A stretch of 34,029 bases of DNA from Treponema sp. (GTDB taxonomy: Bacteria; Spirochaetota; Spirochaetia; Treponematales; Breznakiellaceae), in contig JAISOX010000045.1 in the NCBI GenBank assembly GCA_031275325.1, forward strand, positions 1-34,029, read 5' to 3'. The notes below the pieces were generated by a model that worked only from the letters and a program-made list of their open reading frames with translations, had not been told where the DNA came from and did no database searches. Shown here piece by piece: positions 18,466 to 34,029 of the stretch (position 1 is its first letter; every line of letters begins with the position of its first letter). The position numbers and the translations under genes were made by a program.

Positions 18466-18978
18466 AGTTCCTCCCGCTGCACCTATCAGAAACCAGAAAC
18501 AGAAAACCAGGCGTATTGCTAAGAGCCCGCGCTTTGTTTATGATAACCATAGTAATAATATAGAGCAGTATACTCATGAACGTATCTTAAAATCAATAAA
18601 ACTCCAGGCAGGGAACCTGCATTAAGGAAGCCCCCTGCCTCTGCGATAAAAATACTGCTGGCTAACCTGTATAAAAGCCTTCGCGGGGCGCTGCGATACG
18701 CCTTCGCGGGGCGCTGCGATACGCCTTCGCGGGGCGCTGCGGTAAGCCTTCGCGGGGCGCTGCGGTAAGCCTCCGCGGGATGCTGCGATAAGCCTTCGCA
18801 GGATGCTGCGATAAGCCTCCGCGGGATGCTGCGATAAGCCTCCGCGGGATGCTGCGATAAGCCTTCGCAGGATGCTGCGATAAGCCTTCGCAGGATGCTG
18901 CGATAAGCCTTCGCAGGATGCTGCGATAAGCCTGAGTTGCCGGCAGCGATAAGCTAAAGTATACAGAAGGAAAGGATT
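18466..18978. other. Divergent intergenic region carrying a 23-bp repeat array
   Basis: No gene is supported here. The region separates the minus-strand operon from the plus-strand SPFH-like gene. More than half of it is the 12-unit 23-bp array (18677-18952). The open frames across it on the minus strand are the repeat read in rotating frames (23 is not a multiple of 3). Confidence 0.7.
18677..18952. repeat. 23-bp tandem repeat array 1, 12 units
   Basis: Units start every 23 bases from 18677. Each has the linker TAAGCCT (TACGCCT in the first units) and a 16-base core, for example TCGCAGGATGCTGCGA, which folds as TCGCAG/CTGCGA with a GATG loop. Other cores are TCGCGGGGCGCTGCGA and CCGCGGGATGCTGCGA. 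The twelfth unit is degenerate (GAGTTGCCGGCAGC). Same unit length and linker as the array at 27598-28425. Confidence 0.95.
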
Positions 18979-25804: not shown

Positions 25805-27346
25805 ATGGCGAACAACGAAGCGGCACGGGTAATACAAGTATTTGATACGACCCTGAGGGATGGAGAGCAATCTCCAGGATGCAGCATGAATTTACCGGAA
25901 AAACTGGAAGTGGCCCGGCGGCTTGAACGGCTCAGGGTGGATGTGCTGGAAGCGGGGTTCCCCGCATCCAGTCCGGGAGATCTGGAATCGGTGAAGGCCA
26001 TTGCAGGGATCATCAAGGATTGTACGGTGGCTGGACTGTGCCGGGCTTTGGAAAAGGACATTGACGCGGCCCGGGAGGCCCTTAAACAGGCCGCCGCGCC
26101 GCGGATTCATGTCTTCCTGGCTACCTCTCCCATCCACATGGAGTATAAGCTCAAAATGACCCCTGAACAGGTGCTGGAGCGGGCGGTTATGGCCGTGCAA
26201 TACGCGAAGAAGTTCTGCGCCCAGGTGGAATTCTCTGCAGAAGACGCTTTTAGGAGCGATCCGGACTTGGTATGCCAGGTTTTCGGCGCGGTGATTGCCG
26301 CAGGGGCCACGGTGGTAAATGCCCCGGATACGGTAGGTTACGCCATGCCCGATGAATTCGCCGGGTTTATCAGCTATATCAAAGGGCATACCCCGAATAT
26401 GGAAAAGGCCCGGCTCTCGGTACATTGCCATAATGACCTGGGGCTTGCAGTGGCCAACAGCCTGGCAGCGATCCGCGCGGGAGCGGACCAGGTTGAGTGT
26501 ACGATCAACGGCATTGGGGAACGCGCGGGAAACGCTTCTTTGGAGGAGATCGTCATGGGCCTGCGGGTCCGAAAAGACCGCCTCCAGGCAGATACCCGTA
26601 TCGACGCGGCCCAGCTTTATACGGTAAGCCGCCTGGTAAGCCAAGTAACCGGGGTGAAGGTCCAGCCCCACAAGGCTATTGTGGGGGATAACGCGTTTGC
26701 CCATGAAGCAGGGGTTCACCAGCACGGGGTCTTGGCTAACCGGGCCACCTACGAGATCATGACCCCTGAATCAGTGGGGATCCCCAAGAACCGCATGGTC
26801 TTGGGCAAACACTCAGGCCGCCACGCGTTTGAGGATCGCCTCCGGGATCTGGGGCTCTCCCTTAATGAGGCCCTGGTAGAACCGGTCTTCGCCCAGTTCA
26901 AGGTCTTGGCGGATAAGAAGAAAGTGGTGAGCGACCGGGACATAGAGGCCCTGGTGATGGAGGTTTCCGCTTCGGTTCCTGAAACCTGGAAACTCGACCG
27001 TTGGGTTATAAACTGCGGTTCCACCTTGAGCTCTACCAGCACGATCCGGCTTCAGCATAAGGATGGAACCGTACAGGAACAGGCCGCGGTGGGGAATGGG
27101 CCTGTTGATGCCGCGTGCAAGGCCATTAACCGGATCATCGGGAAGGAGCCTGCCTTGGAAGCCTATGAGCTGGGGGCCATTACCGGGGGCGAAGACGCCC
27201 AGGGTGAGACCCTGGTGAAGATCCGCTGGCATGACCGGCATTGGAACGGCCGGGGGGTTTCTACGGATGTGGTGGAATCCTCGATAAAGGCGTACCTGGC
27301 CGCGATAAACGCCCTGGAGTGGGAGCTGGCCCCTCCGCAACCCTAG
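25805..27346 (+). CDS. leuA: 2-isopropylmalate synthase
   Basis: A 513-residue enzyme condensing acetyl-CoA with 2-oxoisovalerate, the committed step of leucine synthesis. The TIM-barrel has FDTTLRDGEQSPGCSM (about 13-28), the metal-binding HCHNDLGLAVANSLAAIRAG and the HEAGVHQHG motif. A subdomain follows (VLGKHSGRHAFEDRL), then a C-terminal LeuA regulatory domain for leucine feedback (about 385-513). Length fits the long-form LeuA; homocitrate or citramalate synthases are less likely because they differ in N-terminal substrate motifs. AAGGAG is eight bases before ATG 25805. It is the last gene of the plus-strand cluster; no leuB, leuC or leuD follows. Confidence 0.92.
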   Translation: MANNEAARVIQVFDTTLRDGEQSPGCSMNLPEKLEVARRLERLRVDVLEAGFPASSPGDLESVKAIAGIIKDCTVAGLCRALEKDIDAAREALKQAAAPRIHVFLATSPIHMEYKLKMTPEQVLERAVMAVQYAKKFCAQVEFSAEDAFRSDPDLVCQVFGAVIAAGATVVNAPDTVGYAMPDEFAGFISYIKGHTPNMEKARLSVHCHNDLGLAVANSLAAIRAGADQVECTINGIGERAGNASLEEIVMGLRVRKDRLQADTRIDAAQLYTVSRLVSQVTGVKVQPHKAIVGDNAFAHEAGVHQHGVLANRATYEIMTPESVGIPKNRMVLGKHSGRHAFEDRLRDLGLSLNEALVEPVFAQFKVLADKKKVVSDRDIEALVMEVSASVPETWKLDRWVINCGSTLSSTSTIRLQHKDGTVQEQAAVGNGPVDAACKAINRIIGKEPALEAYELGAITGGEDAQGETLVKIRWHDRHWNGRGVSTDVVESSIKAYLAAINALEWELAPPQP

Positions 27347-27365
27347 CAAAGCCGCGGGCTGGGCT

Positions 27366-27595
27366 AAGCCTTCGCGCCTGCCGCGGGCGTTATAGGGGGC
27401 CGCGGGGTACGGATGCGGGGCTTATGTCCCTTGGTTCCAGCCTCCAGCGGCTCGTCCTCTCCTATACTGTGGGTAATTATAAGCCTTCGCGCCTGCGGCG
27501 GGCGTTATAGGGGGCCGCGGGGTACGGATGCGGGGCTTACGTCCCTTGGTTCCCGCCTCCAGCGGCTCGTCCTCTCCTATACAGTGGGTAATTAT
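27366..27595. repeat. 115-bp direct repeat, two tandem copies
   Basis: 27366-27480 and 27481-27595 are nearly identical. Both begin AAGCCTTCGCGCCTGC, contain GCGGGCGTTATAGGGGGCCG and end GTGGGTAATTAT. The length equals five 23-bp units and the following array continues in the same register. Confidence 0.92.
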
Positions 27596-27597
27596 AA

Positions 27598-28425
27598 GCC
27601 TCCGCGGGGCGCTGCGGTAAGCCTCCGCGGGGCGCTGCGATAAGCCTTCGCGGGGCGCTGCGATAAGGCTTCGCGGGATGCTGCGATAAGGCTTCGCGGG
27701 ATGCTGCGGTAAGCCTTCGCGGGGTGCTGCGATAAGCCTTTGCGGGGTACTGCGATAAGCCTTCGCGGGATGCTGCGATAAGCCTTCGCGGGGTACTGCG
27801 ATAAGGCTTCGCGGGATGCTGCGATAAGGCTTCGCGGGATGCTGCGATAAGCCTGTTATGTTGGCATAACTAAGCCGGTTATGCGGGCAACATTAAGCCG
27901 GTTATACCGGCATAACTACGCCTATTCAGGATCATGAACTAAGCCTGTTCAGGATCATGAACTAAGCCTGTTCAGGGTCGTGAATTACGCCTGTTCAAGG
28001 TCGTGAATTACGCCTGTTCAGGGTCGTGAATTACGCCTGTTCAGGGCCGTGAATTACGCCTGTTCAGGGCCGTGAATTACGCCTGTTCAGGGTCGTGAAC
28101 TACGCCTGTTCAGGGTCGTGAACTACACCTGTTCCGGGCCGTGAATTACGCCTGTTCAGGGTCGTGAACTACGCCTGCTCAGGGTCGTGAACTACGCCTG
28201 TTCAGGGCCGTGAACTACGCCTGTTCCGGGCCGTGAACTACGCCTGTTCCGGGCCGTGAACTACGCCTGTTCAGGGTCGTGAACTACGCCTGTTCAGGGT
28301 CGTGAACTACGCCTGTTCAAGGTCGTGAACTACGCCTGTTCAGGATCATGAACTACGCCTGTTCCGGGCTGTGAATTACGCCTGTTCCGGGCTGTGAACT
28401 ACGCCTGTTATGTCGGCATAACTAA
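27598..28425. repeat. 23-bp tandem repeat array 2, 36 phase-locked units
   Basis: Units start every 23 bases from 27598 to 28403 without any phase slip. The linker is TAAGCCT or TACGCCT. Units 1-11 have cores like TCGCGGGATGCTGCGA. Units 12-14 have GTTAT-type cores (GTTATGTTGGCATAAC). Units 15-35 have GTTC...GAAC cores (GTTCAGGATCATGAAC, GTTCAGGGTCGTGAAC, GTTCCGGGCCGTGAAC). Unit 36 returns to GTTATGTCGGCATAAC. Core arms mostly stay complementary across the changes. Confidence 0.96.
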
Positions 28426-28464
28426 GCCTGGGCGGTCAGCTCGTATTCGGAACGAACTTCTCGC

Positions 28465-28723: not shown

Positions 28724-30529
28724 TTAGTAAAATATTCTGATATGCTCTACCTGGTTCCGATGCACCATCTTAAGCAGCAGGGTCTGTTCCGATGCAGAGT
28801 AAGCCCAGCCGGAAGAATTATACCGTTCAAAGTCCGCAGCGGTTCGATAATCAATACCGTAGAGTTGAAGCCTGCTGGGCCGGGAGATGCCGCAGATCAG
28901 CATATAATGGGTCTCCTCCACCGGAAATGATACGGCAATGTCCAGCATCGAATTGCCCTGGGTTACTGAGACGGAAGAAGCCCCGGTCCAGGCCCAGACC
29001 GCAGTGGTCCCGCTGCCGCTGATGCTTACCGCCCGGGGATAGTTTTCACTGGGACTCAAGATGCGATAGATCTGGGCGGAACTGAGCCGTGGAGAATCGG
29101 TATCTTCGCTTATGGCTCCGGTTTCTGAAATGAGCAGCCCTGCAGGAACGGTTCCTCCCTCATGCTCCAGGGAGAGCGCCGAAAGGATGAGGGAACGCCC
29201 TATAGCGGCCCAATCCATAGTGCCGGCGTTTTCCGCGTATACCATGAGGGCTTTCCCCAGGCGCAGGTTGAATGCGGTATCCGCCTTACCCTCATAAAAC
29301 ACAAATGTCCCTTGGGGGGCCTTGGTAAGACCCTGGGAGATGATGAAATACATCTGATCGATAAACCGTTGAAAGGGGTTCTCTTGGATCCCGGTCTTCT
29401 CCGTAATGGAACGGTACAGCATCCAGTCCATATACCCTTCGAAGATTCCTGGGAGCAGATCCGGAGAAACCGTAACCGGATTCAGAGAACTGAGCAGCTT
29501 CACCCCGTTTTCAAGTAAGGTAAGGTGCCCGCGGATCGCCAAGTATGCAAAAACGTGGGGTTCTTTTAAGAATTCCAGGGATTCCTCCCGGAGCATCCGG
29601 GAAAGCCGGTTGACGGTATCCCGTTCAGCGGCGGCAAGAGAACGGAGCCCTTGATCCAATTGACCGAGAAACACCGTGGACTCGTAGGTCCGCCGGTTTC
29701 CATTGAGAAACGCGGAAGGAACCGCTGCAAGGGCCCCTCGATAGGTTCCCTGGCGGATCGCTTCTCCTCCATAGGCAATCACGAGATCTTCGGTAGCAGC
29801 CCCGGCAATGCTCGTACTCCAGAGATTGAAATTCTGATCCTGCCAGCGGCTGATGAACTCATGGTATACCTGGTTATCCTGAGCGCCGGTAATGATAAAG
29901 TTTTGAGGGGTAAACGTCTGGCCTTCCAGAACAGGCCGGTAGGAAATAAAGGGGACTTCCTGGTGGAGCGCCAGAACCTGCCGTTCTGAATCCCTCAAGG
30001 TTCTATTGAACCCGTAGCTTACCCCTGTATCCGCGACCACCTCGAATTGGCCGTCCCCCCTATCATGGGTCCGGGAGGTTTTAAGGGGTTTATAGGGAAG
30101 CTCCAGCCCAAGAATGCCTTCCCCTAAGGCCGCCCGAATCAAGAGTTCCGGTTTCTCGCCGGTATCGTAGACGGAAAAGATGAGTTCTGTCCCGCCCGGC
30201 AGTTGGACCTCCAGGGTTTCCCCGGATATGGTCATGGCTTCAGGACGCATAGGCTCTTTGGTTCCATCAGCCCTTATGAGACTGAATCCGCCATCCCGGT
30301 TGGTGATACTGAACCGCATTCCCCCAAAGGAAATCAGGAGGTCTCCTGCCAGGGGGTAATGGTTGGCGTCAGGGGGAATATGCTTAGGGGACCGCCCGCT
30401 TACCACAAGATTCCCCACCTGCCGGGTAAAGGTCCCTTTTTCGGCAAACTGTAAGGTTCCTAATAACACAAAAGCCGCCCCATAAAGAAAAAGAAGGCCG
30501 ATTATTCGTGGAAATATAGATGTTTTCAT
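28724..30529 (-). CDS. Large membrane-anchored or exported protein, unknown function
   Basis: A 601-residue protein with an N-terminal hydrophobic anchor or signal (about 5-28, RIIGLLFLYGAAFVLLGTLQF) and a large domain presumed to lie outside the cytoplasm. The first 200 residues look beta-rich (LLISFGGMRFSITNRDGG, EVQLPGGTELIFSVYDTGEKPELLI). The middle is helical (about 280-420: ERDTVNRLSRMLREESLEFL, FEGYMDWMLYRSITEKTGI, and the region with KALMVYAENAGTMDWAAIGR). The end is beta-rich (HYMLICGISRPSRLQLYGID). I do not recognise a family. ATG 30529 is chosen because a strong promoter ends just before it and the upstream ATGs at 30544 and 30547 lie inside the -10 box. No ribosome site is obvious. 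Confidence 0.75.
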   Translation of the reverse strand: MKTSIFPRIIGLLFLYGAAFVLLGTLQFAEKGTFTRQVGNLVVSGRSPKHIPPDANHYPLAGDLLISFGGMRFSITNRDGGFSLIRADGTKEPMRPEAMTISGETLEVQLPGGTELIFSVYDTGEKPELLIRAALGEGILGLELPYKPLKTSRTHDRGDGQFEVVADTGVSYGFNRTLRDSERQVLALHQEVPFISYRPVLEGQTFTPQNFIITGAQDNQVYHEFISRWQDQNFNLWSTSIAGAATEDLVIAYGGEAIRQGTYRGALAAVPSAFLNGNRRTYESTVFLGQLDQGLRSLAAAERDTVNRLSRMLREESLEFLKEPHVFAYLAIRGHLTLLENGVKLLSSLNPVTVSPDLLPGIFEGYMDWMLYRSITEKTGIQENPFQRFIDQMYFIISQGLTKAPQGTFVFYEGKADTAFNLRLGKALMVYAENAGTMDWAAIGRSLILSALSLEHEGGTVPAGLLISETGAISEDTDSPRLSSAQIYRILSPSENYPRAVSISGSGTTAVWAWTGASSVSVTQGNSMLDIAVSFPVEETHYMLICGISRPSRLQLYGIDYRTAADFERYNSSGWAYSASEQTLLLKMVHRNQVEHIRIFY

Positions 30530-30542
30530 TTTTGCTTCGCTC

Positions 30543-30571
30543 ATCATACTACGAATATACCCGCGTATCAA
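30543..30571 (-). promoter_or_regulatory. Strong sigma70-type promoter of the unknown membrane protein
   Basis: Minus strand TTGATA (30566-30571), exactly 17 bases, TATGAT (30543-30548), each five of six to consensus. The expected transcription start is only about six bases upstream of ATG 30529, a near-leaderless message. Confidence 0.7.
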
Positions 30572-33830: not shown

Positions 33831-33914
33831 AAAAAAAACAGTGAGGGGTTTACAATCATCCCTATATACAGGGCATTGACCATTTTAAGATGATAGGATA
33901 AAAATACTTTATGC

Positions 33915-34029
33915 AAGAGCCAAGAGCCAAGAGCCAAGAGCCAAGAGCCAAGAGCCAAGAGCCAAGAGCCAAGAGCCAAGAGCCAAGAGCCAAGAGCCAA
34001 GAGCCAAGAGCCAAGAGCCAAGAGCCAAG
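33915..34029. repeat. Heptanucleotide AAGAGCC repeat, at least 16 units
   Basis: Perfect 7-bp tandem repeats run from 33915 to the window end with no interruption visible, so the true length is unknown. On the minus strand it reads as a repeating LALGSWL peptide, which I regard as an artefact. Confidence 0.95.

Follow-up and report, generated by a model that had tools for sequence, protein, structure and literature searches.

Phased 23-bp palindromic arrays in Treponema and their association with genes for HU-like DUF4469 proteins

The window, by which we mean the whole 34,029-nucleotide stretch analysed here, is contig C84 (JAISOX010000045.1) of a Treponema sp. MAG (GCA_031275325.1, hereafter G000) that is 66% complete and comprises 2.15 Mb in 178 contigs. 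Its named relatives are mostly Treponema and Spirochaetaceae MAGs from what we presume to be a termite-gut series. The window contains two arrays of 23-bp units, each unit consisting of a 7-nt linker and a 16-nt palindromic core. The main array lies between two convergent genes and the second between divergent genes. The features discussed below are as follows.

18674..18956, + strand: second array, in the same family as the main one; 12 units, flanked by divergent genes
25805..27346, + strand: upstream flanking gene, which we take from its sequence to be 2-isopropylmalate-synthase-like; the main array begins 248 bp beyond its end
27365..27594, + strand: two 115-bp direct repeats, each starting with TAAGCCT, abutting the main array
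27595..28429, + strand: main array, thirty-six 23-bp units, each a TAMGCCT linker followed by a 16-nt dyad, and a closing TAAGCCT
27595..27847, + strand: block 1, 11 units, TCGC..GCGA, core of the TCGCRGGRYGCTGCGA type
27848..27916, + strand: block 2, 3 units, core of the GTTATG..CATAAC type
27917..28399, + strand: block 3, 21 units, GTTC..GAAC, core of the GTTCAGGGTCGTGAAC type
28400..28422, + strand: last unit, GTTATG..CATAAC, core GTTATGTCGGCATAAC
28724..30571, − strand: convergent flanking gene, without a Pfam match

Unit spacing in the main array is exactly 23 bp from the first unit to the last, as the first-pass annotation had described from a start placed 3 bp too late (the true start is 27595). 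The three switches of core family that it reported also hold, from TCGC to GTTATG, to GTTC and back to GTTATG. The linker is less constant than was claimed, since TAAGGCT, TAAGCCG and TACACCT occur beside the TAAGCCT and TACGCCT forms. The consensus arms pair at 5-6 of 6 positions, the GTTCAG..CGTGAAC block reaching only five because its pair 6 is G/G. The adjoining 115-bp repeat belongs to a dispersed family with 62 matches in G000. Related forms of this ~100-115-bp repeat (GCGCCTGC..GCGGGCG) lie on both flanks of the main array, and the copies that abut the array open with TAAGCCT. Composite arrays look as if they were joined at linkers. Elsewhere in the window, tandem repeats at 1-993 (102/306 bp) and 2413-2628 (21/63 bp) are probably coding.

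The arrays belong to a family that extends well beyond the window. Exact TAMGCCT-N16-TAMGCCT matches occur at 112 places in G000, compared with 0 for a reversed-pattern control. Calling an array as a run of at least three linkers, with one mismatch allowed, we found same-linker arrays with differing self-complementary cores in 28 of 200 family genomes, representing 13 genera; the array is thus not unique to one assembly. Matches of our first pattern scan in other phyla were mostly chance-looking, non-palindromic runs, with the exception of a Bacteroides record (L108) that carries a real array adjoining a DUF4469 gene. Among 360 locus-distinct cores, Watson-Crick pairing holds in 62-85% at pairs 1-6 and in 34-40% at the centre. 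The centres GATC, GGTC and GGCC therefore vary as the earlier annotation stated, with little pairing at these positions across the arrays as a whole. The arms tell a different story: 20 core clusters keep a mean of 3.9 of 6 arm pairs, compared with a mean of 1.67 and a maximum of 2.6 in shuffles, which bears out the proposal that self-complementarity is kept while the core changes. Where both sides of a pair had changed, 47 pairs were still paired and 14 were unpaired. Units within arrays differ at 4.4% of linker positions (0.044) and 12.4% of core positions (0.124), a contrast that is an upper estimate because units were picked by linker. A palindrome with a one-sided linker is nearly absent; instead, palindromes alternate with tags in direct tandem, each having one on either side. 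The dispersed arrays are intergenic and show no orientation bias relative to genes, which speaks against a cis-regulatory element of fixed orientation.

Arrays of this kind come and go between close relatives. The second array (18674) is missing from the orthologous site in three sister species (G001, G002 and G003), so was probably gained recently. At the orthologous site 3' of the window gene 28724-30571, G006 (L267) has an unrelated 21-bp array of TATAGAAGTTTCCCGGTCGGC-like units and G001 has a ~42-bp repeat; on sequence comparison, this intergenic site is a hot spot for different arrays. In a repeat census unbiased by linker, which used G000 contigs selected in part for their arrays, G000 and a relative, G127, had ~20-26 tandem arrays per 100 kb, and one comparison genome had 6 per 100 kb. 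Many of the arrays in G000 and G127 contain dyads, have a period of 23-24 and use other linkers. Many contig ends in G000 and G127, including window positions 33914-34029, are perfect 5-, 7- or 21-24-bp repeats of ~118 bp. This length points to an assembly at k=119 that broke within tandem arrays, so array content is underestimated. We considered whether the arrays could themselves be an assembly artefact and rejected this, as interior arrays are imperfect and are present in the records of other projects (L132, L136).

A cross-genome comparison of array-adjacent genes picked out one 255-aa protein family, at whose stop codon an array begins in L136, L137, L147, L151 and L117. These proteins combine DUF4469 with an HU-type DNA-binding domain (HU-DNA_bdg) and are members of the known HU-DNA_bdg/HU-HIG + DUF4469 proteins (PF14848, PF18291, PF14734; PDB 4fmr). 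The HU fold is supported by matches to PF14848 with E values down to 1e-38 and by a profile match to 4fmr (E 4e-71), with IHF/HU chains matching weakly. Seven of seven proteins checked from outside a Treponema clade that we call clade T (see below) exceed the gathering score for both PF14848 and PF14734; in clade T, DUF4469 passes and PF14848 reaches 23.2 bits at best, below the cut-off, or gives no match. An AlphaFold2 model built from a five-sequence alignment had a pLDDT of 41 and was discarded. A search of viral contigs for relatives found none.

The association between arrays and HU/DUF4469 genes is strong. Defining a gene-side array as one of period 22-24 or 45-48 that starts between -60 and +150 from the stop codon, we found a ~23-bp array 3' of 56 of 71 DUF4469 genes and 16 of 483 control genes (Fisher 7e-48). 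Five of the 71 genes had been found via arrays, and without them the count is 51 of 66. On the 5' side, an array was present at only 3 of 67 genes. The 3' arrays start mostly within ~60 bp of the stop codon, and several overlap it. In a larger set, 115 of 140 DUF4469 genes have some 3' array, with a period of 23 bp in 72 cases, 46 bp in 29, 24 bp in 4 and other values in a few. DUF4469 is present in 26 of the 28 array genomes and 53 of the 172 others (raw counts that ignore phylogeny and habitat), usually in several copies (1-23 per genome). Most genes have a repeat unit of their own, for example GTGAGAGACGCTCTCAC-ctatgg or GATCAAACACCTTGATC-gcatcg, and the gene-side units are dyad-symmetric (5.16 of 6 pairs, compared with 4.14 when shuffled). 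Genes for more similar proteins tend to have more similar arrays (Mantel r 0.21; permutation maximum 0.08), yet array sequence turns over fast: even proteins that are >80% identical have only 15% of repeated 5-mers in common.

Where do the window arrays belong in this diversity? Seven TAAGCCT-adjacent Treponema proteins form a single long-branched clade, clade T (support 100/99). By our count, 27 of 36 further clade-T genes, found by protein sequence, have 3' arrays with linkers near AGGCTTA, which is TAAGCCT read from the opposite strand. An in-phase linker of the form AG[GC][CA][CT]T[AG], a pattern chosen after inspecting the arrays, occurs in 22 of the 34 arrays beside clade-T genes and in 6 of the 73 remaining arrays; for the exact AGGCKTA linker, the counts are 11 of 34 and 4 of 73. 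The linker is not strictly clade-bound, with exceptions at L382, L363 and L108. Clade T is present in 19 of the 28 array genomes and 18 of the 172 others, again as raw counts that ignore phylogeny and habitat. The mismatches run both ways: in 18 genomes with clade-T matches we detected no TAAGCCT array, and 9 of the array genomes gave no clade-T match; gaps in the MAGs may explain some of these.

The cores of the main array also point to clade T. The TCGC core of block 1 matches clade-T gene-side arrays at L461, from the sister species G008, and at L151 in 14-15 of 16 positions; at L461, the clade-T gene is followed by TAAGCCT-TCGCAGGGTGCTGCGA units that are almost identical to those of the window. 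The GTTATG core of block 2 matches an array adjoining a clade-T gene at L460 in 15 of 16 positions, and the core of the last unit is found there with 16 of 16. The GTTC core of block 3 has a 15 of 16 match in the array adjoining the clade-T gene at L117. More generally, of 55 core clusters from dispersed arrays, 11 have a match of at least 14 of 16 at clade-T arrays only and 3 elsewhere only (permutation p 0.0002). Within genomes, the match between dispersed and gene-side arrays is modest (11.8 versus 10.9 of 16, p 0.02), though strong in G127.

In all, the window arrays share the 23-bp period, the dyad core and the clade-T linker with the HU-DUF4469 module. We looked for a DUF4469 gene beside both of them and found none nearby, and thus neither starts within 150 bp of the stop codon of such a gene; we class them as dispersed by their linker and core matches. 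The best explanation of the main array is that it is a dispersed member of a 23-bp palindromic array class that would belong to the HU-DNA_bdg + Ig-like DUF4469 proteins. The only clade-T gene found in the 66%-complete G000 (C7:3506) is truncated, its DUF4469 half lost. Since this gene is truncated and no DUF4469 gene adjoins them, the window arrays may be relics, or a copy within the third of the genome that the assembly lacks may serve them. Unrelated sequence stands in place of the DUF4469 half (G000:C7:3506-4882), and both here and in L147 the start of a type III-like DNA methyltransferase gene adjoins the clade-T gene.

The association reaches into a second phylum. In Bacteroidota, arrays of 23-24-bp palindromic units are found at most DUF4469 genes of Tannerella, Dysgonamonadaceae and Bacteroides MAGs of termite or gut origin. 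In the Bacteroides array at L108, the palindrome is kept while the linker moves from an AAGTATT-like form to AGGCTTA. A wider Bacteroidales sample had an array at 13 of 26 DUF4469 genes, leaving about half without one. In Parabacteroides distasonis TSDC17.2-1.1, whose records are labelled as plasmids in PLSDB, all five of the DUF4469 genes found have an array.

We propose that these arrays form a new class of gene-linked DNA element, in which diversified HU-fold/DUF4469 proteins of Spirochaetota and Bacteroidota each have their own palindromic array, with the pitch (23 bp) and symmetry conserved and the sequence free, and in which protein-specific docking arrays would spread through the genome. 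We give this reading a rough probability of 0.55. Slightly more probable, in our judgement, is its narrower core, namely that HU-like proteins would dock on the arrays and recognize them by dyad structure and spacing more than by sequence. Among the three ideas put forward in the first-pass annotation, arrayed protein-binding dyads is thus the one we favor, because of the linkage to HU-like genes from which we infer binding and function. The HU-DUF4469 protein would bind the array as DNA, with one protein unit per 23 bp, and would recognize the linker together with the dyad geometry, a bent or cruciform-prone palindrome of the kind that HU binds. If the protein reads a short linker and, at 23-bp intervals, the palindrome geometry, the two arms could change in concert with no loss of linker, symmetry or spacing. 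The array at its own gene could serve the protein for loading or autoregulation, and dispersed arrays could give it additional places to dock and so shape chromosome structure locally. New and mixed arrays might be born by duplication and joining at common linkers.

Several features of the arrays could also arise without a dedicated protein. In hairpin-driven minisatellites, palindromic units would expand by replication slippage and imperfect ones would be corrected by template switching, with the HU-like gene a bystander or merely tolerant of them. Such a process would fit the recent gain at an empty orthologous site, the lack of gene-orientation bias, the many unrelated sequences among arrays, and the 47 to 14 excess of arm changes that stay paired. 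However, it does not predict a single period (23/46 bp), a location 3' of the genes of a single family in both phyla, or a linker conserved above the core (0.044 versus 0.124, in units selected by linker), and we think it unlikely. We rate slightly lower still a selfish mobile module made up of gene and array, which would use the arrays as substrates when it inserts or recombines. The multiple DUF4469 copies, the arrays that appear and vanish between sister species, the composite arrays seemingly joined at linkers and the site-specific integrase adjoining one P. distasonis gene are all in keeping with mobility. However, the HU-DUF4469 protein has no recognizable transposase or recombinase domain, neither target duplications nor terminal repeats were found, and the repeats are on one side of the gene only.

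An array that follows directly on a stop codon, on one side only, is also where one would look for a string of 3'-UTR hairpins that stabilizes the HU-like gene's mRNA or regulates it. In the sense-strand arms of gene-adjacent arrays, however, G-T pairs (104) are not in excess of A-C pairs (110; sign test p 1.0), with individual classes deviating both ways, and this is why we favor DNA over RNA. Furthermore, the dispersed arrays are unoriented to genes, and Rfam models gave 0 matches in the window and hence no known structured RNA. The structured transcript suggested earlier is therefore improbable. Least probable of all, to the point of being very doubtful, are REP/BIME elements mobilized by a RAYT (Y1 transposase), despite a real resemblance in short tagged intergenic palindromes, stems that differ between species and a dedicated protein family (PMC3733652, PMC3116915), and despite Y1_Tnp genes in many genomes. 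TAAGCCT palindromes flank 0 of 20 Y1 loci, and G000 has only one Y1 match. By definition, a REP/RAYT palindrome adjoins a GTAG or CGTC tag (PMC3733652), whereas our palindromes lie between two tags of another sequence in direct 23-bp tandem, with an HU-like partner rather than an adjacent Y1 nuclease. The lack of such flanking repeats also weakens the case for a repeat-making enzyme acting on a hairpin template, a further idea of the first pass for which Y1/RAYT is the one obvious candidate. A Y1/RAYT-like gene does lie near the clade-T gene of L461 (~420-1040), bordered by its own palindrome GTGTCWGACAC, which is also present in L151; this is probably a separate REP/RAYT system.

Returning to docking by HU-like proteins, the closest parallel is in E. 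coli, where HU, which prefers cruciform and distorted DNA, acts with the palindromic REP325 locus and its RNA (naRNA4) in nucleoid condensation; the likeness lies in the HU-fold protein, the repeated extragenic palindromes, the cruciform preference and the proposed chromosome-structuring role (PMC6907758). In contrast to REP325/naRNA4, the arrays described here are tied to genes, keep a 23-bp phasing, are lineage-specific and bear no sign of RNA-level selection. To our knowledge, REP325 is not an HU-gene-linked array. STAR elements of staphylococci and other minisatellites are likewise intergenic short direct repeats (PMC3532100). They are not known to have a free-sequence, fixed-period dyad or a linked gene. 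CRISPR arrays, with repeats of about 21-48 bp and unrelated spacers, do not fit, as the constant part here is 7 bp and the variable part is palindromic and itself repeated. Neither do integron attC arrays, as the cores (GAGTGG, TCGCAG, GATCGG) are without GTTRRRY/RYYYAAC boxes. A search for literature on DUF4469, a linked repeat array or palindromic repeats of termite-gut Treponema found none, although there may be an earlier notice in a survey of HU clades that Burroughs and colleagues are said to have published in 2017. We know of no described kind of gene-linked array that combines conserved geometry with free sequence, and the 23-bp palindromic array class, a large one in gut Spirochaetota and Bacteroidota, is apparently undescribed.

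If this reading is true, the arrays would provide a DNA partner for a domain of unknown function, DUF4469, and an example of a DNA-binding system that conserves geometry rather than sequence. They would also explain some of the short tandem repeats at which assemblies of termite-gut bacterial genomes break. P. distasonis, a cultivable gut commensal with arrays at all of its DUF4469 genes found, would then be a directly testable system. In this species, the DUF4469 genes of L477 and L479 adjoin fimbrillin-family and integrase genes, and given these neighbors they may mark variable surface loci.
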